64,000 nucleotides of DNA from Tetradesmus obliquus. Lineage: Eukaryota > Chlorophyta > Chlorophyceae > Sphaeropleales > Scenedesmaceae. Shown here piece by piece: positions 175 through 60,611 of this stretch. The notes beneath the pieces are model-generated. The model made no database searches. It was not told the DNA's origin and was given only the letters and a program-made list of their open reading frames with translations. Position 1 is the stretch's first letter. Each line of letters begins with the position of its first letter. The stretch is from NCBI GenBank assembly GCA_030272155.1, contig CP126202.1, positions 3,493,501 through 3,557,500 of the forward strand, given 5' to 3'. The translations under genes and the position numbers were made by a program.

Positions 175-808
175 GCGGTGTTTCAGCTGCAGTTTGACCA
201 GCAGCCACTGCTGCTGTTTGTGGAGATGCCGCCCAGCTTTCCTGCAGAGGCGCCGCTGCTGCTGCTGCAGAGCATGCGGCGCATGGGGCCTGACAGCTGT
301 GCTGCCCTCAGCAACATCCCTTGGAGCCCCAGGTGAGCTGCAGTCAGGCATACAGACTTGTTGTCATAGTTGAAAGTGTGCAATTGCCATTGGCAAAAGT
401 GGGTTTGAGGACGCAGAGGCAGTCTGCGAGCATCAAAGGTGCTGAAAGAGCCATGATAATGCAGCTGTGTATAAGTCATGTGGCGGCTGGGGCCTGACAG
501 CTGTGCTGCCCTCAGCAACATCCAATGGAGCCCCAGGTGAGCTGCAGTCAGGCACACTGAATATCATTGCTTGTTGTTTATCATATCTCTAAGATGATGC
601 GACTCTATGGGTGATAAAGGCCTGTTGCCAGAGTTGAACGTGCTCCAAATGCCATTAGGATGCCGCTGTGTAGGGCTAATGCGTGCTGGGTGGGATTAAA
701 CCTGCAGCACTGCTCGCTCTTCTGGAGAGGCAAAGCCCGCGCTGCAACCAGCCCCTTCCAGCACTCCTGCAGCTTCAACTCTTGTTGACCTCTGCTGCTC
801 TGCTGCTG

Positions 809-848
<40 letters not shown>

Positions 849-958
849 GCAGGTGGGATGCAGCTGAGATGGCTGCGCGGCTCTTCAACTTTGTGAAGCA
901 GCAGGCGCCCGGCATCCTCAAGGACATGGAGGGCGGCAGCAGTGGGGCCGCGCTGTAA
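1..958 (+). CDS. BABAM2: BABAM2/BRCC45 (BRE) C-terminal part, partial gene
   Basis: C-terminal 145 residues of a BRISC/BRCA1-A complex core subunit, a scaffold with UEV-like folds that supports the K63-specific deubiquitinase BRCC36. Two exons are visible, 1-332 and 853-958, joined in phase 2 (AG|G) so that the end reads SPRWDAAEMAARLFNFV. The PYSPRWD-x-x-EMA signature is how BRE proteins end in animals and plants, and the stop lies about 25 residues after it, as in the family. The first exon is open to the left edge, so the rest of the gene lies outside the window. A Ser run (about residues 48-58) is encoded by AGC repeats. The intron holds a second copy of the exon end (489-550) and a CTG run before its acceptor. 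The assignment rests on the C-terminal signature only. Confidence 0.72.
286..550 (+). repeat. Exon-edge echo in the BABAM2 intron
   Basis: Bases 286-347 (last 47 exon bases plus the donor and first intron bases) recur at 489-550 with two or three substitutions. The following intron sequence is also recognisably duplicated but more diverged, giving a tandem unit of about 203 bp. Confidence 0.85.
797..849 (+). repeat. Intronic CTG run at the acceptor
   Basis: About 17 CTG-like triplets fill the place of a polypyrimidine tract and end at the CGCAG acceptor (848-852) of the last BABAM2 exon. Confidence 0.9.
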
Positions 959-1111
959 TGCTATGTGGAATTTCTATGTGACAAGCGGCAGTCGCTTGAC
1001 TCTGTACCTCGAGGACACCGCGGCACAAGACAGACTGAACCCTACTTGTTTAGATGGCACGGCTCCTGTTGCCGCTCCATGTTGTTTGATGTGATGCTCT
1101 TAGTCACAAAA

Positions 1112-1116
1112 TGTAA
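1112..1116 (+). terminator. Candidate TGTAA poly(A) signal of BABAM2
   Basis: TGTAA, the usual green-algal polyadenylation signal, lies 154 bp after the BABAM2 stop. The stretch 959-1464 otherwise shows no gene; it should hold the 3' UTR of BABAM2 and the promoter and 5' UTR of the next gene. Confidence 0.4.
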
Positions 1117-2208: not shown

Positions 2209-2254
<46 letters not shown>

Positions 2255-4092
2255 AACTCAGGAGTCTGCAGCTGCAGACAGCAAGCAGCAGCAGCAGCAG
2301 CCAGCTCAGGAGCCTGCTGCTGCTGACAATGAGCAGCAGGAGCTGCAGCTGCAGCTCAAGCGCCAGGCTGACAAGGTGTGAGACAGCAGTTGTCTCAGAC
2401 AGGAATTGGTTGTATCTGCTGGCATAGTGCTGCTGTGTGGCATATCTCACCGTCTTAGAGCCAGTACTGTCAGGCACACCCCCTCCTACTCCTTCATCCG
2501 CCTGCCTCTCTCCTTTGGATTCTGACTTCTCCGCCGCCTGTCCACCCTCCTCGCCCGCTTCAAGTTCATCTCACACGCCTCCCTTTTGTGTGTGTGTAGA
2601 TTCAAAGCCTGGCCACAAACAACCAGCGCCTGGAGCAGCAGCTAAGGCAGGAGCGCAAAGGCAGCCGCAAAGGGGACAGCCTCAAAGATCAGCTGGCAGC
2701 CAGCCAGGCAGAGGCACAGCAGCTTGCAGGACAGCTGCAGATTGCACAGTTCGAGCTGCTGCTGCTGCAGCAGCAGCAGGCAGCAGCACAGGACCAGGTG
2801 AGGGGGCCAAGGGGGCGTGTGGGAGACTACGGCAGAGGACACAGGGACGCTTGTGGCGCTGCGCTAATGACACGTCACTTTGCTCACCTCGTGGGCATGG
2901 GTAGGTTTGTGCGCATCCTACTTGCTATTTGTAGTATGCCGCTCACACCTGCACCACCCTGCTGTGCCTTGGTTCATACTCTGATGCAATGTAGGTTAGC
3001 ACCACCGGACAAAGCAGCCACAAGCAGCAGGGCGGCAGCCGGCCTGCTCCAGCTGCGGCAACCACAGCTGATGCACAGCAACCGCAGCAGCAGCAGCAGC
3101 AGGCATCAAATGAGGCGTCTAAGGCGCAGGATGCTGCCCCAAGGAAGGTTGTTGCATTTGTCGGGGGCCGCGCCTTGAAGCCGTCTGACAGGAAAACACT
3201 GCCGCCTGATGCTGAGGTGGGTGCGATGGTTGGATGATGGTTTGATAGTATAATTTTACATGTGATCAGAATTATAATGGTAATTTGATGATGATCATAA
3301 TTATAATGGTAATTTGATGATGATGATGCTGAGTTGGGTGCGGCATCAGCACACACACACACACATGCACGCATGTGACCACATACGACATGTCGCCTCA
3401 GCCATGTGTACATACATGCAGCCTTGCTGTCTGTTGCGCATGCAGCGCCACACTGTGTGGTGTGCTGGCACACATACCCGTATGCCTAGACGTGTGACTG
3501 AGCCTAATGTTGACGATTGTGCGTTCGTAAAGTGTGTATCCTGCAACTCTTTATACCCTTATGCCTCACCCGGGCGTGACTGACTGACATCCTCGCCCCG
3601 CAGGTGCGCTTCTTTGGCAGTCCGTGGGACAAAGGCAGGGAGAGCTGCAGCGCCTGGAAGCTGTAATCAAAGCGGGCACAATTGACGAGGTGCAACTGCC
3701 ACATCATTCAACTGCATACATCAACATGGCTGCTCTGCTCTGCTGCTGCTCAGGTCAAGTCATCCAGACACGCGAATGAGTATTATCTGGCATTGTGCTT
3801 CTCCAAAGTGTGTTTCCTGCAACTCATTGCCCTGCAGGTGCGCTTTTTTGGCAGTCCGCGGGACACAGGCAGGGGAGAGCTGCAGCGCCTAGAAGCCGCA
3901 ATTAAAGCGGGCACGATTGACGAGGTGTACATGCCCACGCGCTGGAACAGCCACACCACCACACAGCTTGTTACGAGGCTGTGCAAGGACAGGGGCATTC
4001 CTGTGCTCCTGCTGGATGCGGGGGAGAAGGCGCGGCGCAAGGCTGAGTGGCAGGACGCAAACAGCAGCAGCAGCGACATGGACACGGCGTAA
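1465..4092 (+). CDS. Plastid-targeted-looking coiled-coil protein with DUF2325-like C-terminal domain
   Basis: Six exons (1465-1583, 1689-1776, 1926-2375, 2600-2797, 2995-3216, 3838-4092) join in phase to 443 aa. The first 40 residues are rich in Ser, Arg and Ala with no acid until D37, like a plastid transit peptide. Hydrophobic stretches follow near residues 47-69 and 125-140, then a Gln run, a short coiled coil (about 220-285) and, from residue 333, a Rossmann-like segment starting KVVAFVGGRAL and continuing with IDEVYMPTRWNSH and GIPVLLL. The order GGR, then an acidic turn with a polar SH motif, then GIPV resembles bacterial DUF2325, whose function is unknown; this is a recognition by eye. 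The start codon is ATG 1465 (or 1468) and fits phase with exon 2. A decayed copy of the last exon sits upstream at 3602-3692. Confidence 0.6.
2213..2253 (+). repeat. Exonic CAG run (polyGln)
   Basis: About 13 CAG triplets in frame, encoding Gln in the third exon of the DUF2325-like gene. It is on the CAG strand in the gene's sense, unlike the intronic runs. Confidence 0.9.
3205..3345 (+). repeat. Echo of the fifth-exon donor, splice site lost
   Basis: The exon end GATGCTGAG|GTGGGTGCG (3208-3225) recurs near 3326-3342 with GT changed to TT. A 25-bp intronic segment (ATTATAATGGTAATTTGATG) is also present twice, near 3270 and 3300. Confidence 0.6.
3602..3692 (+). pseudogene. Frameshifted copy of the terminal exon of the DUF2325-like gene
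   Basis: Close copy of 3838-3928 including the CAG acceptor; one G is missing in GGCAGGG(G)AGAG, so the reading frame breaks to a stop. Part of the intron before it is copied as well (3532-3555 matches 3805-3830). The 3838 copy stays open to the stop, so it is the functional exon. Confidence 0.8.
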
Positions 4093-4343: not shown

Positions 4344-4382
<39 letters not shown>

Positions 4383-6359: not shown

Positions 6360-9300
6360 TTACATGTAAAGGCCCTCAGGCACGCCCTCCTTCTTCTTGT
6401 ACAGCACCTTCTCCTTGGCCTTGCGGAAGTCAGCCTGGCAGCAGCAGCAGCAATAGGAGCAGCCAACAGCAGCAGGTAACCACACAGTTATTATTGCACC
6501 GCGGGAGTGGTGGGTAGAGGATTAACTGTCAGTGTGGAGGCGCCAGGGAGTGACAGGGTTGAAGTCAAGGCCCTGGTGGCATGCATTTCTGTTGCAGCGG
6601 CGCGCATTAAGCTAGAGTGCCGAGCTGCGGTGCTGTGGCAGCAACAGGCTGACAAGGAAATGCCTCACACGCCAGCACCCAGCAGCCGCCTCACTGTGCC
6701 AGCGACTCAGCCATTTGTACAGCAGGGGCGCATGCAGCAGCTCGTGACAACACATCATATGGCTGCGGCATACAACTGGACTCAGAAGCAATACGTTTTC
6801 ATTCAAGGGCGGCACACCTGCGTCACGCGCATGCGCCGCTCGCGCAGCGCCAGCAGCTATCAATAGCGCTAGCTGCCCAATCCATCACACGCCTGACCAG
6901 GACAGCTAACAATGCATTTTCCCAAGAAAAAAGCAGCGTACCTGTGTCACGCGCATGCGCCGCTCGCGCAGTGCCAGCAGCCCCGCCTCTGTGCACACCG
7001 CCTTGATGTCTGCGCCGCTCAGCTCGTCCTTGGCCATGACAAACTCCTCCAGGTTGACGTCCTCAGACAGCGTCATGCGGCCTGCAGGGCAGCGTGCAAT
7101 GCATGAAAGGGATGTTACACAAAATGACCGAGTGAAGCGCAAGGAAGCGTAGAAATGCCATGACAAACACCTCCAGGTTGACAATATTGACCAGCGTCAT
7201 GTGGCCTGCAGTTTGCGGCGAGCGGTGCATGAAAGAAGCACTGACAAATGGTGGCAATGTGTGGTGTGCAGCATTAAGAAAAGTGTGAGGAACGCCATCA
7301 CGTACTCCTCCAGGCTGCATCGCTATCTGCTTGCATGCATTTTTTAGTAAGCCCATTGAAACCATATAACAGGCTCCTCCCCCCCGCATCAACACGTGGC
7401 CGCACCTGTGTGGATGCCGAAGATGCGGCGCTTGGTCTTTGCATCTGGCAGCGGGAACTCGATCTTGCGGTCAATGCACATGCGCAACACGTACGCACAT
7501 TCAGGCACAGTATGCCCTCCTCCTTCTGCTCCAGTGGAGCTTGGCCCTATTGGCTTGAATTGTCACATAACAGACATAATATTGTTGGTCAAAACACAAG
7601 CACGCGTGGTCACCTGTGTGGATGCCAAAGATGCGGCGCTTGGTCTTTGCGTCTGGCAGCGGGAACTCGATCTTGCGGTCGATGCGGCCCGGCCTGATAA
7701 GAGCGGGGTCCAGCGTCTCGATGCGGTTGGTGGCCATGATCACCTGCAGAGCCGCGCAGACGATCATTTGAAATTGTGACAGATGTGACAGAGGTTTGAA
7801 TCAGCGCGGGTCCAGCGTCTCGATGCCGTTGGTGGCCATGATCACCTGCAGCCAGCAGTGCAAGAGGGTGGCTGGATGTGTTGGGTTTGATGACAGCATA
7901 TCAGCGTGATGCAGCAGGCGCAGTGTCGCACCCCCATGTGATACAAGCTCAAGCATGGTGCGCTGGATGCCACACCCACCACAGCAGCAGTCAAACAAGT
8001 CAAAGTAACAAGTAACAACGTTCAAACCGCCGCACCTTGACCTCGCTGAGTGCATCGAAGCCGTCCATCTGGTTGAGCAGCTCAAGCATAGTACGCTGGA
8101 TCTCGCGCTCGCCGCCGCTGTGGCTGTCGTAGCGCTTCGTGCCGATGGCGTCGATCTCGTCTGCAGCACAACAACAATGCAGCAGAACGACAGCAGTGAC
8201 AATGACGGTAGCGCAAGCTTTGAATGTACTATAGCACTGCAGCTGCAGCTTGGCAGAAACTGACAGCGGGCTTGACCAAAAAAGACGAGAGAGCGTGTGA
8301 TGCGGTGAAGTGCATCTATAAACTACTGCGCCTTCCTGCTACCGCTCACCTATGAACACGATGGCGGGGGACAGCTTGTCCGCCACCCTGAACAGCTCCC
8401 GCACCAGCTTGGGCCCATCACCCAGGTACTTCTGAATCGACTCGCTGCCCAACCAAAACACAAAACCACACACCTAAAACCCTGACAGTGACACGATACA
8501 AGCACACCATGCCGAGGCTGTGCTTGGATGCACATAACTACACAGCGCTGCGCTTTGCCTGTTAAAACAAACAAACACATACACCGGCCTCACCTATGAA
8601 CACGATGGCGGGGCTGAGTTCATCCGCCACCCTGAACAGCTCCCGCACCAGCTTGGGCCCATCACCCAGGTACTTCTGAATGAGCTCGCTGCCCACCACG
8701 CGCAGGAACGTGGCGGATGTGGAGTTGGCCACAGCCTTAGCAAGCAGCGTCTTGCCTGTACCTGGCTCGCCATACAGAATGACACCCTGCAGGGATACGT
8801 GCATTGGGCAGCAAGCAGGCAGGTTCAGGCAGTGCATGAACTCAGTGCAGCAAGCAGGCAGGATCACGCCTGGCGGCAGCAGCAGCTCAACAGCGGCGGC
8901 TGGGTTACGTGGGGCAGCAGGAACAACCGTACCCCCAGGCCCCTAAACCCTTACCTTTGGTGGCTTGATGCCGATGTCCTCATACAGCTCTGGGTTGGTC
9001 AGCGGCAGCTCAACGGCCTCCTTAATTTCCTGCACCTGCTGCTCCAGCCCGCCCACGTCAGCGTAGCTCTCCAGCGGCGCCTTCTCCACCTGCATGGGTT
9101 GTCAGAAGTACATCAATACTGCTCAAGGAAGGATATCGCTGGTGCTAATGCAAATGACAATTGGTGTAGCTCTCCAGCGGCACCTTCTCCACCTGCATGG
9201 GGTTGTTAGCAACACACAGTGCACAGTGTTCAATGCAGTAATATGATGCTTTAAGCTTATCCTTATGATGATGATGACGGTGATGATCACCACAACATGT

Positions 9301-10021
9301 CAGCGGCGCGCTTTCCACCTGGTGAAATTACCAGCAGAGCATGCAGAATGGTGACGGTGCAACCGCACGCGCAGGCGTTATCTGTGTGTCACGCACAGCC
9401 TCAAGGGTTGGAGGCCGGGCATGATGCCAACCATGCAGAGACTACGAGGGGCAGCGGCAGAGAGGCCTGGCCACACAAACAGTCATGAATGTGGATAACT
9501 TTCATGGCCTACACAATGTCCGTCGAGCGCGCATATGTAGCACGACACACAGGCTATTCCAGCGCAGTGGAGTACAAATGTGCTTTGACTGTCCAGTTGC
9601 AGCGACTGCAAATGGGCGATCAGAGAACATTTGTACTCCACAAAACGGTAGATGCATAAGACCATGCTAGCCGGCCTCTTGTAGCAGCCACCTGTTGCTT
9701 GCAGTCGTCAAAGGAACATGCGCTGCGCATCAGCCCAGTGTCCAATGTTGACTTCCAGCAACAGGCAGGATACAGCTGACGCTACTAAACGCGTTACAAT
9801 AAGATAACATAACGTGCTGAAGGCCCAGCAGCACAGCCCAGGCTTCGTCGCCTCACCTTCATGACTGACACCATGCAGGACACAGCTATTGCAGTAGTGT
9901 ATGCCCTTTAATCAAACTGCATAACTTGCTGTGATGAAAGCGTGGCTGCCCTGCCTCACCTTCATGACTGACACCATGGGGTCTGTCTCGTCCTGCAGGA
10001 TGCCTACCACTGACATGACCT

Positions 10022-10057
<36 letters not shown>

Positions 10058-12012
10058 GCGTCGATGAGGCCATTGCAGGTGCAAGCGCCGCAATGTCACG
10101 GCAGTGCCCTTGCTGCTGGTGCACCATACAAAACCGGCGGCTGCTCGCCCAACCTAAACAGGTCTGCCATGCTGCTGCACAACGCAGCAGCACCAGTGCT
10201 GGCAGCAACGTCATTGCAGCAACACCATTGCAGTTGCAGCAGCAGCAGCAGCAGCAGCTTTTATCTGGCTCACCTTGTTGTGCAGCAGCACGCTGCAGCC
10301 CGGCTCCAGCTGCGTCTTGTCCACAAAGGAGAGGATGCCCACGTAGTACTCGGGGCCCACCGTGCTGCTCACGATGGCGTGGCTGCACGCCGCAGTAATG
10401 ATGGCGCGATGCAGCAGCAGCAGTGCAGACAGTTGACGTTAAAATGCTAGCACAGCCATCACCAGCTGGCTGTTCAAAACCGCAACAGGTGTAGGCATGC
10501 TGCACACAAGCATGAGCGTAAGGGACTGGCATGCCACAGCTGCAAACAACCTTTTAAGTTCAGAGCTGCAGGCATACAGCATCTGCTGCAAGATACTAAG
10601 CCACGATTGCCCCAGTTTGACCGCTTTCATAAAGCATGTGCACACAGCTGCAACTACAACCTTGATCCTGGTGGAACCACAAACTCAAGCTGCAGCCTGC
10701 TGACTTCTGCGGCAATCACCATGCTGCTGCTGCTGCTGCCACCACCACTAGACACTCCTTTGCTGCTCCTGCACGTGCCGCGCTGCTACTGCTCCGCCGC
10801 TGCCCTGCGCTGCCGCTGCCTCTGTTGCTGCGCTGCTGCTGCTGCCGCTGCTCACTTTTCATCAATGATCTCCTCCAGGCTGCCTACACTGAGCGGAGAC
10901 CCGCGAAGGTCATCCACCTGCAAAGAAAGAAACCGCGGACACAAAGCAGCAAAGTCAGAGCAAAGCATGTCACTTCACTGTGCTCCGCAGGTGCAGACAC
11001 GCTCATAGCCCAGCAGCTGATGGCAGGCGTAGGAAGCACAGCAGCCACTTCCACTTGCCAGGACCAGCTCGCAGTTGCCACTGCGGTGATTGTGCATCAC
11101 CTGCAGAGACAGGGAGCCCAGTGCAGTATCTACATCTCCCTGCATGCCTGCTGTTGTTTTTGCACACAATGGCTGCTGCTTTCTTTTGCAGCATAACATC
11201 AGCAGCACATCCCCACCTTTGACCTGTCCTCTTCATTGCGCTCGTCCTGCGGCCGCAGCTGCTCCTGGTTCTGCACAAACTCATGCTCCATCAGCAGGTA
11301 GTCCTTGATGCGCTCCAGCTTGAGCAGCCGCAGCTTGCACTTGGTTGCTGGAGTGACTGCAGGAAGCTTGCTGCCCAGGCCGCTGGCTGCATCGCGCTTG
11401 CGCTGCTTCTTGCCCACGCGGGGAGGGGGGGCTGGGGGCTCCCACTTCTTCTTCTTCTCCTGCAAGTGTGGGGTTTGTAAAAAAATATGTGTGATGTGTA
11501 TGTATGGATATGTATCAAGTGGAGGTGGTGTGGGGGGTGAAGGCATGGGTGAAATGGCACAGGGGTGGGGAACTGCCACGGGCGATGGGTGCCAGCAAGT
11601 GCAGGGCGTGGCTGCAACTGTTGTTGGTGCGCTGCTTTGGGTCTGATTGAGGATAGTGGCTGGGATGCACTGCTGTGGTTAGACGTGTAGAGAGGAACTG
11701 CATAAACCAAAGAGAAGAAGACGTGCTGGCTCTGGTGCATGTGGCATGCACAACAACTCTGCAACTGACACTGCTGCTGCAATGGTGAGCAGTTGCTGCC
11801 ATGCATGCAGATGCTAATGGCCCAGCATCCAAAAACGTGCTAAAAGAACCATGCTTTTACTAGAAGTCCACGGACGGCGATCTGATGCAGACAAACGACC
11901 CAGGCCAATCAACCTGTGGGTGGCATCACAGTGCTGTACCCACCTGATCTTTCTTTTTCTGCTCCCCAGCTCCCGGGGGCCCACCCCCAGGAGCACTCTG
12001 GTTTTGCCCCAT
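6360..12012 (-). CDS. RPT2: 26S proteasome regulatory ATPase RPT2 (PSMC1)
   Basis: AAA+ subunit of the 19S regulatory particle base ring, which unfolds ubiquitinated substrates and opens the 20S gate. Eleven exons (12012-11944, 11459-11217, 10917-10856, 10382-10274, 10019-9960, 9089-8955, 8786-8594, 8160-8036, 7743-7614, 7081-6942, 6434-6360) join in phase to 446 aa, close to the family's roughly 440. It begins MGQ, the N-myristoylation context typical of RPT2. A Lys-rich stretch and [16 protein letters not shown] (about 75-95) start the N-terminal coiled coil. Walker A is GEPGTGKT (232-239; the Glu is the plant form), Walker B IVFIDEID (286-293), then the SRH/arginine region [17 protein letters not shown]. 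The C-terminus GLYM is the gate-opening HbYX-type tail. Introns carry echoes of six of the exons. Very secure. Confidence 0.97.
6812..7207 (-). repeat. Echoes flanking RPT2 exon 10 on both sides
   Basis: The 3' edge of exon 10 with its donor (6936-6980) recurs at 6812-6857 in the downstream intron; the 5' edge with its acceptor (7033-7087) recurs at 7160-7207 in the upstream intron. Neither copy contains a whole exon. Confidence 0.85.
7394..7851 (-). repeat. Echoes flanking RPT2 exon 9 on both sides
   Basis: Bases 7394-7480 copy the 3' half of exon 9 plus donor (7605-7687). Bases 7803-7851 copy its 5' edge plus acceptor (near 7701-7750), with one Arg-to-Gly-type change in the copied [11 protein letters not shown] segment. 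Confidence 0.88.
8344..8451 (-). repeat. Echo of the 3' half of RPT2 exon 7
   Basis: About 105 bp copying 8588-8695 with the donor site and an open frame. A few substitutions cluster at the codons for the segment between [15 protein letters not shown] and IVFI. Confidence 0.88.
9163..9321 (-). repeat. Two echoes of the 5' edge of RPT2 exon 6
   Basis: The segment encoding VEKAPLESY with its acceptor (9064-9095) recurs at 9168-9200 and, more decayed, at 9299-9321. Confidence 0.75.
9567..9641. repeat. Nested inverted repeat in an RPT2 intron
   Basis: A perfect 15-bp inverted repeat (GTGGAGTACAAATGT at 9567-9581 and its complement at 9627-9641) encloses 45 bp that itself contains TTGCAG-CGA-CTGCAA. 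It could be a small hairpin element. No target-site duplication is evident. Confidence 0.7.
9850..9876 (-). repeat. Echo of the 3' edge of RPT2 exon 5
   Basis: CCTCACCTTCATGACTGACA and five further bases at 9850-9876 copy the donor end of exon 5 at 9954-9979. Confidence 0.7.
10022..10057 (-). repeat. Intronic CTG run (sense) before RPT2 exon 5
   Basis: About 12 triplets reading CTG in the gene's sense, directly upstream of the CAG acceptor at 10020-10022. Confidence 0.85.
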
Positions 12013-42867: not shown

Positions 42868-44972
42868 TCACTCTTTCCACGCAGGCTTGCCGCCATGCGG
42901 CACATCCTCAGTTGCACCGCCAGCACTGCTGACTGCCACTGAGCGGCGCCCGACCGCAGGCGAGCACACCGCAGCAATCTTCGCCAGGATACGCGCCTCG
43001 ATGCCAGCGACAGCATTGCGGGCAGGCGTGGGAGTCTTCTCAAACAGCGGCTGCTGCTGCTGCTTGTCCTGCCAGCGCTGCACTGAGGCGCTTAGTGAGC
43101 CAGCACGGCCCTTACTGGCACTGCTGCAGGCGTCACCAGGCACAGCCACATCAGCAATGCTGTCACTCACACGCCTGCCACCACCTGCGCTGCTTGGCAG
43201 CGGCGTGGCAATAGCAGCAGCAGCAGCAGCGGGGCTGATGCCAGCGGTCAAAGCAGGAGACCCTGCTGCTGCTGCTGCTGCAGCAGCAGCACCGCCAAGG
43301 CCAGTGGCGCTGTCCCTAGCCCACCTGGCAACCCTCCTGCGCTGACCGGGCCCCTGGTCCCCGCCGCTGAATGAGCTACGAGGCGTCACAAATGTGACGT
43401 CCCTGATGGCAGCAGCAGGCGTCATCGGCACTGGATCCTCCTCTGCCACTGCTGCATCATCATCAGCATCGTCTCCTGCTGCATTCTCGCTGATGGGTGC
43501 GGCGTCTGCTGCTGTTGCAGCAGCGGCCGTGTCACTCTCAGCGTCAGCAGCAGACACACGGCGCCAGCCGCCGCCAGAGCTAGCGCGCGCAGCAGCCACG
43601 ATGCCTGCAGCGCTGAAAGCAGCATCCGCATCCTCATCTGCAGCAGCAGTGCGGTAGCCGCCGCCGGAGCTGCTGGCGCGTGCTGCAGCCACAATGCCCA
43701 CTGCGCTGCTGCGCAGCTCCTGCACTGCCTCTGTCACTGCCTCTGCTGCCTCCACTGGCTCCCGCCAGGAGGCCATCTCGTCCACGGTGCTGCGCTGCAC
43801 GCTGCTGATGGCCTCCTCAAAGCCCTCCTGCAAGCAGCAGCAGCAGCAGCAGGAGCTAAAACATGCCTTTACGCGACACTGCTCATGTGAGCACTGCTGA
43901 TGGCCTCCACAAAGCCGTCCTGCAAGCAGCAGCAGCAGCAGCAGCGGCAGCAACAGATGAGATAAGGCCCACACAGGACCCTTGAAGGTGTTGTGTGTCC
44001 TCAGGGGAAGGCACACAGCCTCGCAGCTCCTGTGTATGAGGCGCAGCAGCAGCAGGTCAGAAACGCCAGCAAAGGAGGCCTCACAGCGATGTGTGGTTGT
44101 TATGCCAGGCACGCAGCCTCACAGCTTCTCCTTGTGCAGCGCTGCAGGGCTACTCAGTGCCCTCCAGCAAACCCTGATGCAAACTGCAAAACCATACAGA
44201 CACTCGCAACTACATCAACATCACAGTTGCATCGCCAAACACCTGACACGCTGCCAGCAGGACAAGCGCTCACCCTCGTGGTGTACACAGTGCCTTTGTC
44301 AGCCAGCTTGCCGCGCCCACTCAGCGACATGCTGCGCGCACTCAGCGGCGAGGTGTACAGCACGCTGCCTGCCAGGCTGGCAGCCTCGGTACACATTGCT
44401 ATGAGGCAAAGCAGCGCTGCTTGGTGCAGTTCAAACCCATATCCAGTCACTGCAGAAGCAACCACTTCTGCTGAACCTTACATAAACCAGCAACCAAAGA
44501 AGGTGCCCACCCTGGTAGTGTACACAGTGCCCTTGTCAGCCAGCTTGCCGCGTTCACTCAGCGGCAGGCTGCGCGCACTGAGGCGAAGCGTACAGCACGT
44601 TGCCTGCCAGGCTGGCAGCCTCACACATACTGCTGTGAGGCATAGCAGGGCTGCTTGCCGCATGCAGAGCAGCCCTGTCGCGTCACCGCACCATCTACTG
44701 ACACTCACACTTACATCGACGTCACGCAACAACACCAATTGTACCCAGCAGGACAACCCCTTACCCTGGTAGTGTACACAGTGCCCTTGTCAGCCAGCTT
44801 GCCGCGCCCACTCAGCGACATGCTGCGCGCACTTAGCGGAGAAGTGTACAGCACGTTGCCTGCCAGGCTGGCCGGCTGCAGCTTGGCTGCCAAGGCCTTG
44901 CTGCCGCCCATGCTGCCCTTGTCAGCAGCCAGGGGGTCGTTGCTGCGGGCAGCGAGGTACCTGTAGGGATAG

Positions 44973-45005
<33 letters not shown>

Positions 45006-48000
45006 GAAAGGTTGAGCTGTGTGCTGCAGAAGCAGCAGGTGAGCACTGCGCTGCCGTCCATGCTGCCCTTGTCAGCAGCCAGGGGGTCGTTGCTGCGGGC
45101 AGCCAGGTACCTGCTGGGGCAGGGCAGCAGCAGCAGCAGCAGTGGGGCACAAACACCAACGCCAGCACACTTGCTGCAAAACAGGCGTACAGCCCGGGCA
45201 CGCCGACACGCTTACCACCTACCACACGCTGCTAAGATGTACGCAACTTAGCACAGCCCTTGCCATGTGCTGCGCAACCTGGCGCGTGATGCCAGTATCC
45301 TGACACGGTCCTGAAACTGTGCAAGCACACACAGCTGCTAGGCAAAGCATTTCTCAGCCCTCACGCCGCACCTAATGCACTGCTGCAGGTGGAAGCGCTC
45401 GCACAGCAGCACAGCGGCCTCGTGGCACACACCCCACAGTGTCATACACTAGACGCATGCACGCACAGCTGTCAGGCAACGCTTCTCAGCAGCAGCAGCA
45501 GCAGCCGTCGCACCTGATGCACTGCTGCAGGTGGAAGCGCTCGCGCAGCAGCACAGTGGCCTCGTGGCGCAGCTCCTCCAGCTCCTGCTTCAGCTTGAGG
45601 TGGTACTGGATCTTCTGGCGCGGGTTGCTGTGGCCCAGGCCATTGGTGCCGGTGCCCAACATCTCCCTGGTTTGTGACAGTACAACAGAGACAGGCGGAA
45701 GCTGGGTTTCAGTGTGTGTGGCCCAGGCCGTTTGGTACCGGTGCCCAGCATCTCCCCAGGGAGCACGAAGACAGGCACAGCAGCAGTGTCAGCACAAAAA
45801 GCACTCACAGCATGGCGATAGCTCACTTGCGGTGGTGCCATTGGGTACCAGCGCAGGCAGCACAGAAGATACGCAGCCTCGAACTTCGTTACCGTCAACA
45901 CATGCACAATCATCAGAAAGCCGCAAGGCATGCGGCAGCCAAGCCACCAGACACAGCCAATACTATGTGACCAGGCACCCACTTCAGGTCGTTTGCAATC
46001 TGCTCCAGCCGCTCAGCCAACACCGCGTTGTCCTCCTGCAGCCGCCCCATCTCCAGCGCAAGCGTGGCGCTGCGCCCCACATCACCAGCAGCTGACCATC
46101 GCTTGCAGCATGGAACGGACACAACCTGCAGCTGCGCCGCCTCCAGCACACGCATCCCCGCACAGCCACAAAAAATACTAACAGATAGGCACCATCCCAA
46201 CCTATCCAAGGTCAACAGCACCTACTTGAAATCCGCTGGCCGTCTGCTCCAGCACAGCCACAGAACATGCTGACACTAAGCCACCAAACCCATCCCAACC
46301 TATTCAAGCTCAGGGGCGCTCACTTCAGGTCATCCGCCATCTGCTCCAGCCGCTCAGCCAGCACCGCATTGTCCTCCTGCAGCCGCCCCATCTCCAGCGC
46401 CAGCGTGGCGCTGCGCCCCGCACTTGCACGGGCCTCACCGGCCTCCGCCTCTGCTGTTGACAGGCGAGAGTATGCGGCCTCAAGCTCCCTGCGCAGGCTA
46501 CTCACAGCCTGCAAGGCGCCAGCCAACACGATGCAACACAGCAGTTACAGTGGATTGAGCACTACAGAGGGGCAGAGCAGCACGCGCGAGTATGCGGCCT
46601 CAAGCTCCCTGCGCAGGCTGCTCACAGCCTGCAAGGTGCCAGCCAACACGATGCAACACAGCAGTTACAGTGGATTGACCAAAACAGAGGGACAGAGCAG
46701 CAGACAAGATGAGCAGCCTCCAGCTCCCTGCCCAGGCTGCTCACAGCCTGCACGGCAGAGATCGATCGGTAGCAGGTGCAGAACAGCGGCCGAGTTTGAG
46801 TGGCCGGACCTTCCCTACTGGAGCTGAAATGAAACAAGGCCAGCAGGGAGACAGTGTGCGCACCTGCCCGAATCATGTGTGTGCAAGATCACAGAGTGCT
46901 GTGCTGTGCCAGGCACATGTGCAGGCTGAATGACGAGCCTACAGAACCTGCCTGCTGCAATCAACAATTTGCCACACAGCCACCCTATCTGCACACACCC
47001 AGCCATCCAGCACACCTGCTCCACTGACACCCCAACAGGCGTGCGAGAGGCAGCCTCTGCCCGCAGCTCCGCCACCTGCTGCTGCAGCTGCTGCAGCCGG
47101 TCCTGCATGTCTCCCGCTGCCTCCTGCGCCTCTGCATACTGCTCACGCACGCCCCGCAGCTCTGCCAGCTCCTGTGCCTGCTGCTGCAGCTGCGCCTGTG
47201 CCTCCTGCAGTTGCTGTGACAGCTGCTGGCCCTCAATGGTGAGGCTGGAGAGCTCGTGCTCGCTTGCTGCTGCCTGCGTTGCAGAAAGTGTGCATAGGTA
47301 TGCAGACAGCAGAAGCACGGTGAGGGCAGCAACAACGGTGGTTCGAGCAACAGGGCACAGCAACAGCGGCGGTCGAGACCCGTGCACGCCCTGTGATTTG
47401 TTGGATAAATAGGCGCGTAGACAGCCTGCAACAACAGGCAAGCATTAGCAAATTCACCTGTGTGCGCAGCTCTTCCAGGTCCTGCTGTGCCTCATTCAGT
47501 GCTGCGCCCTGCTGCTGCAGCTGCTGCTGTGCCTGCTGCGCCAGCTCACTCTGCTGTGCCAGCTGTTGCGTCAGTGAGGCCACCTCGTCAAGCAGCTCAG
47601 TCTCACGGCTGCTCCAGGCCTCCTGCATACACACATGCAGCAGTGCAAAGACGGACTGCAGCAGTTATAACAGATTGCTGCTGCTATCACAGATTCAGTC
47701 TCCTGCACAAATGCCGGTCTGACAGCAAGCATGCGGATACAAGGATGCTGTGTGAGCCAACACAAGCATGCCTGCCAGAGGTGTGTTGCCTGCGCCGCGG
47801 TACAGCATACATGCACCAGCCCACCACCCCAGCCCACCGTGCACTCCTCCAGCTCAGCCGTCTGCGCCTCCACAGCATCCTCAGCACGCCTCAGTGCCAC
47901 CTCCAGCGATGCAGCCCTGTCAGCATAACGCTGCAGCTGGCTCTGCAGCTGCAGCGCGCCCGAGGTGACTGCTGCTGCCAGCTGCGAGCTGTGGGTGATG

Positions 48001-53097: not shown

Positions 53098-54208
53098 GGC
53101 TCTGTGTCAGCTGCTGCTGTTCATGCCTGCACAGCTGAATGGAGGTTGAAGGTCACTCGCACGCTTGCCGAAGCAGTAGTTCCTAGAGTACGATGATTCT
53201 TCAATACAAATGTTCAACGTGCTTCGATTCCGAGAAGGCGTCAGGATAGTTGATACTCAGCAAGGCCCCGTCACTTCAAGTGCAGCAAGCTCTGCTTGCA
53301 CTTGCAGTAATGTGATAGCTACTCGTCGAAATTGGATTTGCTTACTACTCAACCATGTGAGAGGCAACTGCTGTTGTGAAGCCACAATTTGAAAACTAAC
53401 GCCTCAAGCAATAACAACCCTTCGCTTTGCACGGTTGATCTTCCATCATTGCTGGCGAAAAAAACACGTAGTTGAAAGCCACAACCCATGGTACTCGCTG
53501 GTGCAACGCTGCGGTTACAAACAGTGAGTTGCACAGTTGCAGAAATGCTACCAGGCCACACTCTTGCAGCCGTTCATTTGCTGGCTGATACTATGTTGGA
53601 AGCTCTTAAAGCTTTTCTAGATGCTGGGATGCGCGTCTTGAGTAAAAGTGCTCGGGCAACAGGATCGAACTTGAGCGGTTACAGGCCAGCTGGCCCTGCG
53701 CAGGGCAACCCTGCTAATGAACACCTGCTGAGGACTTGTGATGTTTACTTGACACGTGAGTGCATGGGCGCAAGAAACCACTGGACAGCTTGTGAAATAT
53801 GGCAACACTGTCTAATTAACCATGCGATGCATGCACCAGAAGACCCAAGGATCATGCATGCGATTTCCAACCTGAGGTACCACCAGCATGCAGTACACAC
53901 GGTAGCACATTGAACTGACAATCAAATTCCCAAACTTCACGTGACACAATCACCATGTCTACATACTGGCTGAGCAGCTCTGCATGTATGGTACACAGAT
54001 GCCGCAGTCCAGGCATGCGCTGTCAGCATGGGAGGCCATCCAAACAGAATGCAGCCATGACACCGCGGTTCATGTAGTTTCAAACAGGCTTTGTAACAAA
54101 CATGAACAGGCTTCGTCCTCTGCTGCAGCCATGGCCCCCGCAGCACCCGCATCCTGCCGCCAAACATATGCACGCGCCAGAACCCTGGACAGCAGCGACA
54201 GCACCAGC
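53098..54208. other. Intergenic: HMMR-like promoter side
   Basis: No supportable gene. It should hold the HMMR-like promoter and 5' UTR and the 3' UTR of RRP36. Confidence 0.45.
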
Positions 54209-54366
54209 CTACTCCATGCGGGGGCCGCCGGGGCGCCGCCCGCTGGGCAGGTAGCGGGGGTCCTTCGCTGCGTTCTTCTTGCGCCGCTTCTCCATGAACT
54301 TGTCCAGCCGCCCGCCCGCCTTGAGCTCGTCGTACTTGGCCAGCAGCTCACGCTTCGCTTTAGGTG
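54209..54366 (-). repeat. Echo of the RRP36 terminal coding exon, stop included
   Basis: About 155 bp copying 54630-54775 at roughly 85-90% identity. It keeps an open frame (KRELLAKYDELKAGGRLDKF) through to its own ME-stop. It lies downstream of the real stop and could be an alternative terminal exon or a 3' UTR fossil. Confidence 0.85.
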
Positions 54367-54629
54367 CTTTTCCTTGGCTGCCGTGCTGACGCCACAGCCC
54401 TGACATGCACTGCCAACATACGTATGTTCACACAGCAGCTGGTAGCTTTGCAAGCGCCCAACCCAGTCAGCTTTGATGAGTCTGTAGCACGTAGCTGCAA
54501 TGCGCTTGATCCACTGCAGCTGCAGCAGCACCAGCAACACCACACCCTGTCGCCAACCACACACCTTCTGGCAAACCAATCACGCCAGACTCGACCAGCA
54601 GTACCAAACAGCGCAACCCCAGGGGTGAC

Positions 54630-57271
54630 CTACTCCATGCCGCCGGCGCGCCGCCCGCTGGGCAGGTAGCGGTGGTCCTTTGCCGCATTCTTCTTGCGCC
54701 GCTTCTCCATGAACTTGTCCAGCCTGCCGCCCGCCTTGAGCTCCTCGTACTTGGCCAGCAGCTCCCGCTTCTTCTTGGCAGCCTTGCTGAGGAAGAAGGG
54801 AGACTTGCCGGCAGCCACAGCAGCCTTCTCCGTGGACTGCAGAGGGCACAGGCAATGAAAGAGTTTGGTGTGAGATGAGGTATGGCATGACAGCAACAGC
54901 GGTATGTTGGAAGCAAGGAGACTTGCCGGCAGCCACGGCAGCCTTCTCCTTGGACTGCAGGGCAGATAAGGCGATGATTTGTGTCAGGGTTGAACAGTTT
55001 GGGGTGTGGCTTGAGGCCAAGAGAATGCTGAGGAAGAAGGGAGACTTGCCGGCAGCCACAGCTGCCTTCTCCTTGGACTGCAGGGCAGAAACATGTGAAG
55101 GTCGCACAGTGCAGATTGTAAGATGAGACGAGGCTTTGAAGCAACAGCTTGCTGATGTAGAAGGGCAACGTGCCGACAGCTACAGCTGCCTTCTCCTTGG
55201 ACTGCAGGATGTGCACAACAGTGATACAGTGTCAGATGAGACGTGCGGCACCATTGCAGGCAACACTATGAGCTGCAGTGTGCACCGGGGCACAGTCCCT
55301 CCACTGACAATCACAGGCTGCGCTTAGGCATGCGTAACTGCTGTTCCAGTGTGTATGCGGCCTCAAGGTGCTGTTGTTCTCATCAGCAGGAAGGGCATGG
55401 ATCCACGACAGACACGCCCACAAAGCAGCAGCTGCCTGTGGTGCAGGGAGAGCGACGTGCCGACAACCTGAAAAACTTCAGGCAGCAACAGGCATGCAGC
55501 ACCCAGCACACAGTACAGTATCTTGCATCATACAGCGCCAGGCTGCAAGACCCTGACCAACACACCCCACGTTCCACTCCTGCTCCAGCTGCCGGCCTCA
55601 AGGTGCTGTTTACATCACCAGCGGGAAGGGCCTCACATCACAACAGAAACACCACCACAGCAGCAGCTGCGCTGGGTTGAGCGAGACAAGCCAAACACGG
55701 GATCAACTCAACTACAGACAGCAACAGGCGCCCAGAAACCAGGCAGCATACAGACCGAGCTTGTTAAGAAAGCTGCAGGGCCCCAACCAACACGCCCCAC
55801 CTTCCACTCCTGCTCCAGCTGCTTCGACTTGCGCCGCACACTCTCGTCGTTCAGCTGCTGCTGCAGCCGCGTCATCTGCGCCTGCAGCTCCCGCCGCTTG
55901 CCCTCCGACTTCTCCTTCTGTGGGAGGAAAAGCAAGGAACAGGCATGACAAGAAGCAGATTTACATGGGGAACTGTTGCAACTGCAGGCAGCATCCCTCC
56001 ACCTGCAAGCGTGCTTTCAGCCGGCCTGACCTCCACGGCAGGATGCAGGTGCAACAGCGCATGCCCATCAGCAAAAGTAGCTGCCACTGCCAGCGATTAT
56101 CAAGCCAGCTCTGACGCCAGCAGCTATCACGCCAGCTTTCACGTGACGCCGCACCTTGAGCTGCTGCTTCAGCGCTGCGCGCTCCTGCGGTAGCACCTCA
56201 TCGTACAGGAATGCGTAGCGGCGCGAGTAGGCCTCATTGCTGAAGGACTTGCCGCCTATGGTCTGGTCAAAGCGCGGGTCCTTTGACGGCCTGCAGGACA
56301 GCAACAGCACGGCACCGCGATCATCATGTTCAGTATAGGAGCTTGGTTATAGATATAAACTAAAGTTGCTGAACGATTTGCCGCCTATGGTCTGGTCAAA
56401 GCAGGGGTCCTTTGACAGCCTACAGGACATCAACAGCAACATACAACGCAAGGATGTTTGTGCAGCGAGACAGCCTGCATGTGCTCACTGGGAAGACGAA
56501 AATGCAACACAAAAGCATGGACTGGCATTCTGCTTGGGACAGCACAGCAGCTGCATCGCCACTTCCCCATGCCTGCTGCTGACAGCCGTGCAAAGAGACT
56601 GCACCTGTTCGTTGCATAGTGTATGTAAGTTATGAGTACGCCACAGCAGGAGTAACAAGCCAACCGCTGCTGCTCTGTTGTACCATGCCAGTGCCATTAC
56701 TGGCTGCATCAGAGCCGAACTGAGGCTGAAGCTGCAACTGCAGTGCAAGGCAACGCTGGCGGCAGGCCTAGACCTGCACTCGGCTGCACTTTATGTGATG
56801 CAACAGGGCTCTTGGCACACAGCTGGCATGACACACACTTCAGCATGCCACTCACTGCTTTGGCACTTGAATGACCTCCCTGAACCGCGACACAGGCCGT
56901 TTCGATGACACCTCCTGCGGCCGGTTCTTGGTTTCTCTGTGGAACACCTTGTGCTTGGCTTCTAGTGCTGCTGCGCGTGCTGCTGCTGGGGTCGGCCCCT
57001 TGCCATCTCTACTGAGCTTCTCTAGCACCTCGAAAGGAATGTCTGCTAGCTGTTGCTCTATGGCCTGCTCCTGCTGTTCTAGGTCCTCACTGGACTCTCC
57101 TTCGTCCTCTTCTTCAGAGCCTGATGCTTCGTCGCTGTCGCCATGCTCTTGGCTGCTGCTGGGTTGCTGCTGCTGCTGCCGCTGCCACTTTGACCCATGC
57201 TGCCTGCCTACTTCCTCGGGAGCGTCACTGTCACCATCTTCACTGTCAGAGTGGTCAAACTTGCGCTTCAT
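54630..57271 (-). CDS. RRP36: RRP36, rRNA-processing / ribosome biogenesis factor
   Basis: Nucleolar component of 90S pre-ribosomes needed for early cleavages to 18S rRNA. Four exons (57271-56856, 56290-56155, 55917-55801, 54836-54630) join in phase to 291 aa. The acidic N-terminus (DSDEASGSEEEDEGESSED) is followed by PFEVLEKLSRDGKG, the family signature SSKRPVSRFREVIQVPKQ (about 120-139), DPRFDQTIGGKSF with YAFLYDEVLPQE, a helical stretch, and the basic C-terminus KRELLAKYEELKAGGRLDKF with RRKKNAAKD. The first donor GTGAGT (56855) gives CA|G and fits the next exon. An upstream in-frame ATG at 57334 would add 21 residues. It is divergent from the COQ7-like gene. Exons 2, 3 and 4 are echoed in the introns, and exon 4 also downstream. 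Confidence 0.92.
54910..55210 (-). repeat. Three echoes of the 5' edge of RRP36 exon 4
   Basis: The segment for EKAAVAAGKSP plus acceptor (54800-54845) recurs ending near 54957, 55081 and 55205, spaced about 121-124 bp. All three read TCCAAGG where the used exon has TCCACGG. Confidence 0.9.
56238..56430 (-). repeat. Echo of the 5' edge of RRP36 exon 2; related echo of exon 3
   Basis: Bases 56238-56300 recur at 56366-56430 (coding DPRFDQTIGGKSF plus acceptor). Separately the donor edge of exon 3 (55801-55822) recurs at 55565-55590. Confidence 0.85.
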
Positions 57272-57574
57272 GTTGGTGTGGAACGGCGTTGAAGCAAGTG
57301 AACACCGACGAGGCAGAAGAAAGGCTGCTGTCACCGGCCTGGAGTGTCAGCGAGTAATCTTTGTCACGTAAGTTGCTGAATCACGTAGACATAAACAGTT
57401 TAAAGCAGCTGTCGTCACGGATTGTGCCTTCTTTGAACGGTAGTTGAGAATGACAAGCCCTTGTGACACCGCAACGCAGCAACGAGCTTTCAACAGCAAC
57501 CGATGCGAATGAGCGATTGTTGACTTTGTGATCGTTTCTCTTGCTTGTTCTGCACGACCATATCAGCGTTGCCA
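57272..57574. promoter_or_regulatory. Bidirectional promoter region, RRP36 / COQ7-like
   Basis: About 303 bp between divergent start codons. It must carry both promoters; no specific element is recognised. Confidence 0.5.
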
Positions 57575-58478
57575 ATGCTTCCGTCCGCTGGTGTCACTGC
57601 CAGCATGCAGCTCTGCTCCCGATTGGCGTGTACAGCCCTGCTGCAGCACTCAGTGGCTCCAGCAGCACCATGGGCGTCACAATCGTCACACATCAACTCC
57701 TTGTTGGGGGCAGCAGCTGGAGCAACAGCAGGCAGCAGCTGGCGGTACTGCAGCAGTAGCAGCAGCTCCACACACCACCAACACCATGATCTCCAGCAGC
57801 ACCAACAGCAGCAGCACTACCAGCACGACGAATTCTACTACGAAGGTGAACCAGAGCAGCCTATGGACAAGCAGCAAGTGCTGCGGGAGCTGCTGCGCAA
57901 AGCACATGTTGCAGAGGTGTGTGGTGCGGAGTGCACTAGCTAGCTAGCCCAACATGTTGAGCTTGTGGCAGTTCTGGAACCAACCAGCTATCACTGCCAA
58001 CAGTAATGGATGCAAAGTCCCTATTTAATGATGAAGAATGCACGCGCTGGCAGTAGCTCAAACGTCAGACGTGTGCGGACCACCAGCTGTTGCCATCATT
58101 AGCGGACAGTGCAATGTCTGTGGCCAATGATGTGACAACGCGCACGTGCCGGCAGCAGCACACCAGCCAGCCATTGATAACTCTTGGTAGTGTTAGTGTG
58201 GGTCCAGCACTAGCATAGCAGAGCTTGCGCTGCACAGCACAGCCGATTCTTGCGCTCCACATGCCTGATGTGTTGCTGCCGGCGCTGCTGCAGGCTGCCA
58301 TGGCCAAGGTGCTGGTGGGGCAGCAGCTGGTGCTGCGCAACAGGCCTGATGCTGCTTTCTTTGCGGAGCAGGAGCAGGACGCACTGCATACAGTGCAGCA
58401 GCTGATGCCGAGGTGCGAGTGCGCAACTGAGCTTGCGCATGATGGTGTTTCCTGGTTATGGTGGCAGGGAAAGCAGCC

Positions 58479-58512
<34 letters not shown>

Positions 58513-60611
58513 GAGAAGCATGGTGCGGAGGTGGCCGTGCAGCTGGTGGTGCTGCTGCAGTGCGAAAAGCTCTGCCAGCAGATCTGCGTCCTCGCAGGCA
58601 GCAGATGCACTCAGGCAACACGCATGCACCTGCAGTGGGCCAGTAATCAGCAGCGTAAGCAGCAAGTAGCCTAGCGTAGATCAGCAGCGTTGGCAGCAAG
58701 CAGTCCGGCGCAGGTCAGCAGCGTTGGCAGCAAGCAGCCTAGCGCAGATCCGCAGCGTTAACAGCAAGCTGCCTGGCGCATGAGGATGCCCAGGCAACGG
58801 GAAGCACTCTGTAAGCCCTCACCTGCACAGCTGCTGCGTTGCTGCAGTCCAGTCCGCCAACATCGCATTCGCTGTGGCCGCTGCATCTCTGCTGCTGGTG
58901 CTTGCAGGTACCGGGTGCGTCCCTCAGCGCTGCTGTCGCTGCTGCAAGGGGCTGGCATGGCAGCAGGCGCTGCTGCAGCGCTGGCGCCGCCAGCAGCGCG
59001 CAACGCAGTGCTGGGAGCGTTGCAGGAAAGCCTCACTGGGCTGTACAATGACCAGCTGAGAGCTATGCGGGAGGCAGGGCTGAGCGATGAGGTGAGAGCA
59101 GCAGCAGTATACGGACGGCAGAAACCATTGCGATGCTAGCTGGGCCTGGTGAAGTGTGCTGCCTGATGCATCAGTTACCTGAGCCATGAGGGAGGCAGGG
59201 GCATGAGGGAGGCAGGGGTTAGCGATGAGGTGAGAGCAGCAGTTGACAGCAGTGCGATGCTAGCTGTGTAATGCAGTGCTGGGAGTCTTGCAGGAATGTC
59301 TGACAGGGCTGTACAATGACCAGCTGAGAGCTATGCGGGAGGCAGGGCTGAGCGATGAGGTGAGAGCAGCAGCAGTATACGGACGGCAGACAGCATTGTG
59401 ATGCTACCTGTGCCTGGTGAAGTGTGCTGCCTGATGCATCAGTTACCTGAGCCGTGAGGGAGGCAGGGGTTAGCGATGAGGTGAGAGCAGCAGTTGACAG
59501 CAGTGCGATGCTAGCTGTGTAATGCAGTGCTGGGAGTCTTTGCAGGAGAGCCTCACTGGGCTGTACAATGACCAGCTGCGGACCATGCGGGAGGCAGGAC
59601 TGAGCGATGAGGTGGGAGCAGCAGCAGTATACGGACGGCAGACAGCATTGTGATGCTAGCTGTGCCTGGTGAAGTGTGCTGCCTGATGCATCAGTTACCT
59701 GAGCCGTGAGGGAGGCAGGGGTTAGCGATGAGGTGAGAGCAGCAGTTGACAGCAGTGCGATGCTAGCTGTGTAATGCAGTGCTGGGAGTCTTTGCAGGAG
59801 AGCCTCACTGGGCTGTACAATGACCAGCTGCGGGCCATGCGGGAGGCAGGACTGAGCGATGAGGTGGGAGCAGCAGCATAAGACAGACGGCCTACAGCAG
59901 TGTGATGCTAGCTGCGCCTGGTAAGTGTGCTGCCTGATGCATCAGTTGTTTGAGTCGTGAGGGAGGCAGGGGTTAGCGATGAGGTGAGAGCAGCAGTTGA
60001 CAGCAGTGCGATGCTAGCTGTGTTATGCCGTGCTGGGAGCCTTGCAGGAGAGCCCGACTGGGCTGTACAATGATTAGCTGAGAGCTATGAGGGAGGCAGG
60101 GCTCAGTGATGAGGTGAGAGCAGCAGTGACATCACTGCGGTGCTGGCTGCGCACTGGTATCGTATGGTACCTGAACAGGCGCTTTTGCCGAGGGAGGACA
60201 TTAGGTCTGATTAAACAGGTGGGCTTTTTGCGCAGTTCAGCACTGCCAGCTGGTCTGCACTGGCCCTTGGTCCCAGTAAGTCACTGCTGGGCCATGCACG
60301 AGTCGGCAATAGCATGCATCAATGTTTCACAGCTTTTGTGTGTTGTTGCAGTCGCACTGGTGAAACTGAGCTGAGTCTTGCTGCTGCTGCTGCTGCTGCT
60401 GCTGTTGCTCCTGCTGCAGGCGGCTGATGTGCGTGCTGTCATGATCAAGCTGCGCAACATGGAGCGAGCAGACGAGGGGTGCCCGGCCCCACCCGACATC
60501 GTGTCACTAACACAGGCGCAGTCGCTGGCTGATGTAGGGCTGGGAGGGGTGCTGGGCGCAGTGGTGAAGGCAGTGGCAGATGCAGCAGTGGCAGCATCTG
60601 GCAGAGTGTAG
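57575..60611 (+). CDS. COQ7-like ferritin-fold protein with degenerate di-iron site
   Basis: Four exons (57575-57916, 58294-58412, 58908-59091, 60420-60611) join in phase to 278 aa. COQ7 is the mitochondrial di-iron hydroxylase of ubiquinone synthesis. Residues 1-60 (ATG at 57575 or 57605; Ser/Ala/Arg-rich, no acid) look like a mitochondrial presequence. Family alignment by eye: KAHVAE with GQQLVL eight residues on matches HAGE...GQ; EQEQDALHTVQQLM matches the EKDH helix; YRVRPSALLSLL matches F/YRVRP; LQESLTGLYNDQLR matches VEES-x5-YNNQIR. The ExxH His of the second helix is Ala and the final ExxH is not conserved, so two or more iron ligands appear lost. It may be a non-catalytic relative. 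Intron 3 is a tandem echo array and ends with a CTG run. Confidence 0.62.
58646..58781 (+). repeat. 34-bp tandem repeat, four copies
   Basis: Units beginning at 58646, 58680, 58714 and 58748 with the core CAGCAGCGTTGGCAGCAAGC, in intron 2 of the COQ7-like gene. Confidence 0.85.
59005..60118 (+). repeat. Higher-order array of exon-3 echoes, COQ7-like gene
   Basis: The 3' part of exon 3 with its donor (from 59005) recurs from 59273, 59524, 59775 and 60027, spaced 268, 251, 251 and 252 bp. Each unit also contains a shorter echo of the last ~25 exon bases (GGGAGGCAGGGGTTAGCGAT). The coding in the copies stays open (ESLTGLYNDQLR-like) up to the GTGAGAG donor in the first copies and decays in the last. 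Confidence 0.93.

Follow-up and report, generated by a model that had tools for sequence, protein, structure and literature searches.

Exon-edge echoes in introns of the green alga Tetradesmus obliquus are probably mirage-type minisatellites born of tandem duplication across splice junctions

In a 64,000-nt window of the Tetradesmus obliquus genome (CP126202.1:3493501-3557500, the whole stretch of DNA analyzed), introns carry partial copies of the adjoining exon edge together with its splice site, referred to here as echoes. These echoes are probably mirage-type minisatellites that originate from short tandem duplications across splice junctions, with purifying selection on exons acting as a sieve. 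This interpretation is based on the direct orientation of the copies, a match that crosses the junction and frequently includes intron flank, the presence of up to eight copies per junction, and decay as non-coding sequence. It is also based on a control for adjacency and orientation, the anchoring of repeat clusters at exons, residual intron homology, the collinearity of the proteasome ATPase RPT2 without its echoes, and the greater length of echo-bearing introns.

It is proposed that a tandem duplication arises across an exon–intron junction, with a unit mostly of 80–170 bp, centered at ~125 bp, and a second class of about double that length. The outer copy would remain in the exon and retain a working splice site, while the inner copy, along with its splice site, would turn intronic and lengthen the intron. 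Duplications that damage the exon would be purged, and splicing would go on at the outer site, as the collinearity of RPT2 suggests. Array turnover, through slippage or gene conversion, may then multiply or refresh the copies. More tentatively, duplications that carry exon sequence may be formed or retained more often than other tandem duplications.

The window belongs to a 104.66-Mb genome of 17 contigs of 3.1–11.1 Mb. Further material comprised 25 stretches of 10 kb at fixed positions (L003–L027), four proteasome-ATPase loci (L028–L031), and three final stretches (L032–L034). A purpose-built hidden Markov gene finder, with the window and 20 of the stretches as its training set, supplied the gene models; it was benchmarked on the proteasome genes only and sometimes takes echoes as exons. 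In its models, the rule that a copy of a 3′ edge lies downstream of the exon and a copy of a 5′ edge upstream (the side rule) served to pick the real copy, and these models are thus no independent test of that rule. The repeat filter removes exact self-palindromes, a single one of which lies in the window (9567-9641), and an array in L018 that is coding-like throughout was excluded from the echo counts.

The well-scored exons of the window have 44 exon-edge copies at 26 junctions, which bears out an earlier note on this DNA that had counted at least thirty. The full table for the window has 63 copies at 37 junctions, the extra 11 junctions belonging to doubtful predicted exons, some of which lie inside echoes. 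Six exons of the window are echoed at both edges, an arrangement that had been noted for several exons. With doubtful exons included, the window and the 25 stretches together have 149 echo junctions (76 acceptor and 73 donor). Their distribution is patchy such that 16 of 24 assessed 10-kb regions have at least one echo junction and eight stretches (L003–L005, L009, and L019–L022) have none. Restriction to certain chromosomes was considered and rejected: the first six stretches on C1–C3, the largest three contigs, are echo-free, but when absence was predicted for three new stretches there, two of the three (L033 and L034) had local direct repeats.

Between well-scored exons, 44 of 188 introns bear an echo, and their median length is 567 bp as opposed to 234 bp for introns without one, in agreement with the earlier suggestion that echoes lengthen introns. 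The spacing to the nearest echo is ≤180 bp in 66 of 94 cases (mean 124.7 bp, standard deviation 21.9 bp), 181–203 bp in 3, 204–280 bp in 21, and larger in 4. At least two copies are found at 42 of 110 junctions, with up to eight at the junction at 59091. A search for helical or nucleosomal periodicity in the spacing gave its best signal at ~12.1 bp, which is unconvincing after the scan of periods.

The copies share the orientation of their exons. Self-comparison of the window and 20 stretches yields 223 direct and 7 inverted local matches, with spacings below 80 bp almost absent and local direct repeats present in 13 of the 20 stretches; five additional stretches yield 69 direct and 0 inverted matches (<2 kb). 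Adjacency was controlled by comparing exon edges (≤100 bp, exon bases only) with all introns of at least 50 bp, L018 excluded. For 79 of 691 edges, the adjoining intron on the expected side contains a same-strand match; opposite-strand matches number 0. The intron at the far end of the exon gives 24 edge matches, a class in which the edges of short exons overlap, while other introns of the same gene give 21 same-strand and 9 opposite-strand matches and other genes of the same region give 4 and 1, respectively. Exon–intron pairs mismatched across regions, the check that the earlier note had suggested, yield only 61 same-strand and 96 opposite-strand matches in ~313,000 edge–intron pairs. Filler DNA or dispersed copying was ruled out as a source, since the copies keep the orientation of the exon and, with few exceptions, extend to the junction.

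Repeat clusters are anchored at exons in 83 of 122 cases, compared with 33.3 ± 4.8 upon random placement (maximum of 47 in 500 trials). The remaining clusters are confined to introns (17), intergenic or at gene ends (5), inside exons (7), or enclose an exon (10), the last class having been counted after removal of predicted exons judged to be echoes. The claim that a whole exon is never copied therefore holds in the window, where 0 of 32 clusters enclose a well-scored exon, but not in the whole sample (10 of 122). All seven exon-internal clusters have a spacing that is a multiple of 3, as is predicted by the purging of damaging duplications. Two matches looked exon-internal with an intronic copy (L011 at 623 and L012 at 591).

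RPT2 allows the gene model to be compared with a known protein. The gene finder put echo exons into this gene; without them, the protein is collinear with solved RPT2 over residues 7–400, apart from a single residue that is lost at a join. The echoes at 6816, 7157, 7403, 7803, 8345, 9166, and 9850 are thus extra, intronic copies of exon edges, and splicing would appear to be left intact, as had been supposed. A whole-genome protein search with RPT2 revealed additional partial matches next to three further ATPase genes. These loci were fetched together with one that lacks such matches (L031); since the three were chosen for showing echoes, they provide no estimate of echo frequency. Four ATPase genes whose exons were set by protein similarity harbor 29 copies at 16 of 42 junctions (8 donor and 8 acceptor), and L031 has no local repeats. 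The side rule is obeyed by all 29 copies, GT or AG is retained in 25, and the matching block of 15 includes >12 bp of intron. A conserved exon end (RPT2 query residues 259–287) is echoed in all three of the different ATPase genes of L028, L029, and L030, each with its own sequence, which may be chance given the commonness of echoes.

The matching block crosses the junction in 107 of 117 cases, running >12 bp into the intron in 77 and 2–12 bp in 30. Residual intron homology surpasses all null draws in 34 of 38 pairs with long intron blocks, 12 of 22 pairs with medium ones, and 7 of 23 pairs with short ones. Both the intron flank and the residual homology accord with the recurrent tandem duplication across junctions that had been envisaged. 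In the 57 pairs that match on both sides of the junction, the exon side is 90.3% and the intron side 83.4% identical, as expected from the earlier remark that exon-derived parts are better preserved. The resulting divergence ratio of 1.7 is near the expected 1.5–2 and fits a pair in which the exon copy alone is frozen.

The echoes look non-coding and tolerate frameshifts: 37 of 40 gaps in the copies are not multiples of 3, spacings modulo 3 are distributed as 24/38/32, and one copy in L028 reads through a stop. Coding alternative exons were ruled out for most echoes on the basis of these frame-breaking indels (insertions and deletions), the stop in L028, and the collinearity of RPT2, although genuine coding repeats may be among the duplicated exons of other regions. 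Protein-level constraint on the echoes at first seemed to be indicated by a third-position bias, yet echo-private changes are close to even over the codon positions (94/84/115). In 44 pairs in which the echo was not called an exon, differences number 60/58/131 by codon position over 746/747/742 sites. Positions 1 and 2 thus have about one share each and position 3 about two, like the intron side, which is expected if the echo drifts and the exon changes silently.

The retention of echoes for a function, e.g., as decoy or stepwise (recursive) splice sites, is improbable. Exon ends of the CAG|GT type resemble ratchet points, and both the excess at junctions and the preserved exon-derived parts would suit such a role. 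However, 21 of 28 donor echoes still have their GT and 27 of 29 acceptor echoes their AG, roughly as would be expected under neutral decay, and neither the tolerated frameshifts nor the even spread of echo-private changes points to selection on the copies.

Over 93 pairs, 306 of the 548 differences fall at third positions (p = 0.0035 when the most permissive neutral bound, one half, is assumed), as do 76 of 137 in the protein-checked genes. Unequal exchange between strongly diverged haplotypes, in which the copies are different alleles from birth, with synonymous differences in the exon parts and heavy divergence in the intron parts, would explain this bias as well as intron parts that cannot be aligned, and a third-position excess between echoes (see below) would also follow. 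This origin is nonetheless unlikely. The share falls to 155 of 288 (p = 0.11) when only echoes not called exons are considered, sequential copying from an evolving exon also produces the bias, and a search of the assembly with one echo turned up neither a second allele nor a close paralogue.

Several observations weigh against duplication followed by simple decay. Ten of the 117 blocks reach no further than the splice dinucleotide or stop slightly before it. When echoes are compared with each other (38 pairs, well-scored exons), identity is 90.5% (6 gaps) for exon-derived parts and 84.9% (48 gaps) for intron-derived parts, and the differences fall mainly at third positions (39/27/73), a pattern that plain decay after one event does not yield. 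Successive copying from a silently changing exon explains part of it, with possible contributions from an intrinsic instability of introns, from exon-templated conversion, or from divergence between haplotypes. Across 51 arrays, no gradient of exon likeness with distance was found: the nearest copy is closer to the exon in 17, the second in 26, and 8 are ties. The nearest copies are therefore not the most exon-like, which indicates that arrays also turn over internally; one array in L030, whose copies show 8, 7, 1, and 9 differences when ordered by distance, suggests homogenization. An active local duplication process, which had been raised as a possibility, finds little backing: only 4 intact clusters are ≥95% identical.

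Simulations address the excess at junctions. Random duplications were placed on the same gene map, followed by exon purging, drift, and the same detection. The simulated clusters are anchored in 29–32% of cases, while the observed fraction is 83 of 105 (79%, exon-internal and exon-enclosing clusters dropped); the gap is approximate because only well-scored exons were constrained, the units were two-copy and ≤180 bp, and "anchored" was defined slightly differently. Slower rates for exon-derived copies raise the simulated fraction only to 0.38–0.56. Among anchored clusters of ≥90% identity, 3 of 27 keep the intron part, compared with 41–93% in the simulations, depending on the indel rate. Very high indel rates were rejected as the cause of the lost intron homology, as they require a gap/mismatch ratio of 0.29–0.40 and the observed ratio is 0.14.

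These discrepancies count against random tandem duplication everywhere with junction copies that merely stay visible through exon purging and slower decay, a possibility that is rather doubtful but finds support in the 1.7 divergence ratio of the pairs matched on both sides. It also draws on the tally of intact clusters (3 anchored and 4 not at ≥90% identity; 36 anchored and 7 not at <90%), which, in small numbers, leans to retention over targeted formation. Since this possibility shares the origin proposed here and disputes only the last, weaker step, the confidences placed in the two overlap. Biased formation or retention at junctions is suggested by the excess. Somewhat more plausibly, though still tentatively, an exon-linked process, such as exon-templated gene conversion that refreshes exon-derived parts as the intron parts drift, may favor the formation or retention of duplications at junctions, with ~125-bp minisatellites serving as a genome-wide engine of intron growth.

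An assembly artifact, in which haplotypes or reads were misjoined in tandem, is highly improbable. The copies are diverged, number up to eight per junction, and are present in 16 of 24 regions of an assembly of 17 multi-megabase contigs, and the 21 stretches checked are free of N.

The echoes of the window are listed in Table 1. Among the names given in the earlier note, those of RPT2, HDAC, RRP36, and the PQQ gene (PQQ_2) have Pfam support and YqaJ lies just above the cut-off; the DUF2325 match lies below it, and the BABAM2-like and COQ7-like genes have no Pfam match.

Table 1. Echoes and echo-bearing genes in the window (window positions; spacings and steps in bp)
Feature	Position	Strand	Description
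BABAM2-like gene	273..560	+	exon 3′ edge 273-332 with donor; copy 477-536, spacing 204; name without Pfam support
DUF2325-like gene	3595..3935	+	exon 5′ edge from 3838; upstream copy 3604-3701, spacing 234; Pfam below cut-off
RPT2 (26S proteasome ATPase) exons	6360..11459	-	echo-free set collinear with solved RPT2
RPT2 echo	6816..6857	-	3′ edge of exon 6942-7081, with GT, spacing 124
RPT2 echo	7157..7235	-	5′ edge of exon 6942-7081, with AG, spacing 124
RPT2 echo	7403..7477	-	3′ edge of exon 7614-7743, spacing 208
RPT2 echo	7803..7851	-	5′ edge of exon 7614-7743, spacing 102
RPT2 echo	8345..8451	-	3′ edge of exon 8594-8786, spacing 244; genome search matches only itself and that exon
RPT2 echo	9166..9209	-	5′ edge of exon 8955-9089, spacing 103
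RPT2 echo	9850..9875	-	3′ edge of exon 9960-10019, spacing 103
HDAC gene 3′ end	18850..19271	+	3′ edge of exon 18659-18917 copied three times, steps 106-115
YqaJ-type gene, exon 28461-28614	28223..29216	-	3′-edge copies 28226-28256, 28338-28400; 5′-edge copies 28704-28777, 28876-28943, 29137-29210
Echo	30005..30043	-	5′ edge of exon 29606-29945, spacing 98
PQQ-domain gene echo	38860..38891	-	5′ edge of exon 38242-38800, spacing 91
Three echoes	40581..40881	-	5′ edge of exon 40107-40504, step ~126
Echo	43894..43944	-	5′ edge of exon 43347-43827, spacing 92
Exon 44765-44942	44254..45142	-	3′-edge copies 44274-44381, 44511-44618; 5′-edge copy 45050-45092
Echo	45372..45429	-	3′ edge of exon 45514-45627, spacing 142
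Exon 46324-46508	45974..46756	-	3′-edge copies 45983-46081, 46226-46252; 5′-edge copies 46581-46628, 46713-46747
RRP36 gene, exon 54634-54836	54208..55208	-	3′-edge copy 54213-54350; 5′-edge copies 54909-54954, 55026-55077
RRP36 gene echo	55571..55592	-	3′ edge of exon 55801-55917, spacing 230
RRP36 gene echo	56366..56438	-	5′ edge of exon 56155-56290, spacing 129
COQ7-like gene array	59002..60149	+	3′ edge of exon 58979-59091, eight copies; ~252-bp period with nested steps of ~120-138; name without Pfam support

Other repeats were also observed. A tandem repeat of 92-bp units at 60614-60883, 98% identical and wholly intronic, is among the few young duplications away from exons. An RPT2 intron harbors a 75-bp imperfect palindrome (9567-9641, 80% self-complementary). 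The L018 array (1-3959) is composed of ~275-bp units that are 95% identical and mostly open reading frame, and in L006 (1-1135), ~191-bp units with 91% identity form an array that lies outside predicted genes. TGCAG terminates the acceptor of 217 of 363 introns in most stretches and of 54 of 91 on C1–C3, often preceded by CTG runs.

The new elements of this analysis are the genome-wide incidence, the preferred unit, and two anomalies, i.e., the excess of anchoring at junctions and the preservation of exon-derived parts between echoes. A mirage in about a quarter of introns between well-scored exons would turn a gene-by-gene curiosity into a measurable mutational process, one that bears on intron growth, on the origin and tolerance of decoy splice sites, and on how frequently the duplications give rise to new introns. 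Each echo is a dated exon copy with the exon as its reference, from which rates of intronic decay, indels, and conversion can be measured. The gene finder misused several echoes as exons, and automatic annotation may do the same.

Mirages have been reported in amphioxus, in the globins BflGb6 and BflGb9 as well as in Adh3, TnC, and PGBD5, with units of 150–160 bp in the globins and of 60 and 108 bp in PGBD5; splice signals are present in many copies, splicing is reported to be undisturbed, and BflGb6 shows concerted evolution (PMC3087553, PMC3902484). As presented in those reports, they were described gene by gene in lancelets, with reverse transcription PCR and haplotype data. The present echoes, in contrast, occur in most sampled regions of a green-alga genome, have a unit of ~125 bp, and are known from assembly sequence alone. 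No genome-wide report of mirages in algae was found in the open-access literature searched.

Tandem duplication across an intron–exon boundary is also described for intron gain in potato RdRp (PMC4974935). The duplication straddles one boundary in both cases; in the account of RdRp, it results in a new spliced intron and an inserted exon, whereas here the inner copy would be intronic, as far as protein collinearity shows. In Rogers-type intron gain, as outlined in its source, tandem duplication likewise supplies extra splice sites, but an exonic AGGT segment is duplicated and the new intron forms between the copies. Here, an existing intron is lengthened, and among the protein-checked copies, 25 of 29 have the splice dinucleotide of the parent junction, and for 15 of 29 the match extends >12 bp into its intron flank.

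Introners are described as a genome-scale source of intron change, mainly in fast-evolving lineages such as green algae (PMC9860276), and form families common to many genes. The echoes match their own gene instead, with 79 of 691 edges matching the own adjacent intron and only the 61 and 96 matches to other genes in ~313,000 pairs. CST-guided fill-in by Pol alpha-primase at breaks bearing 3′ overhangs gives rise to small tandem duplications (PMC8355091) and is a candidate for the mutational step; as described there, it concerns induced breaks in human and mouse cells, with no link drawn to splice junctions, and in the alga it may represent the event from which echoes start.

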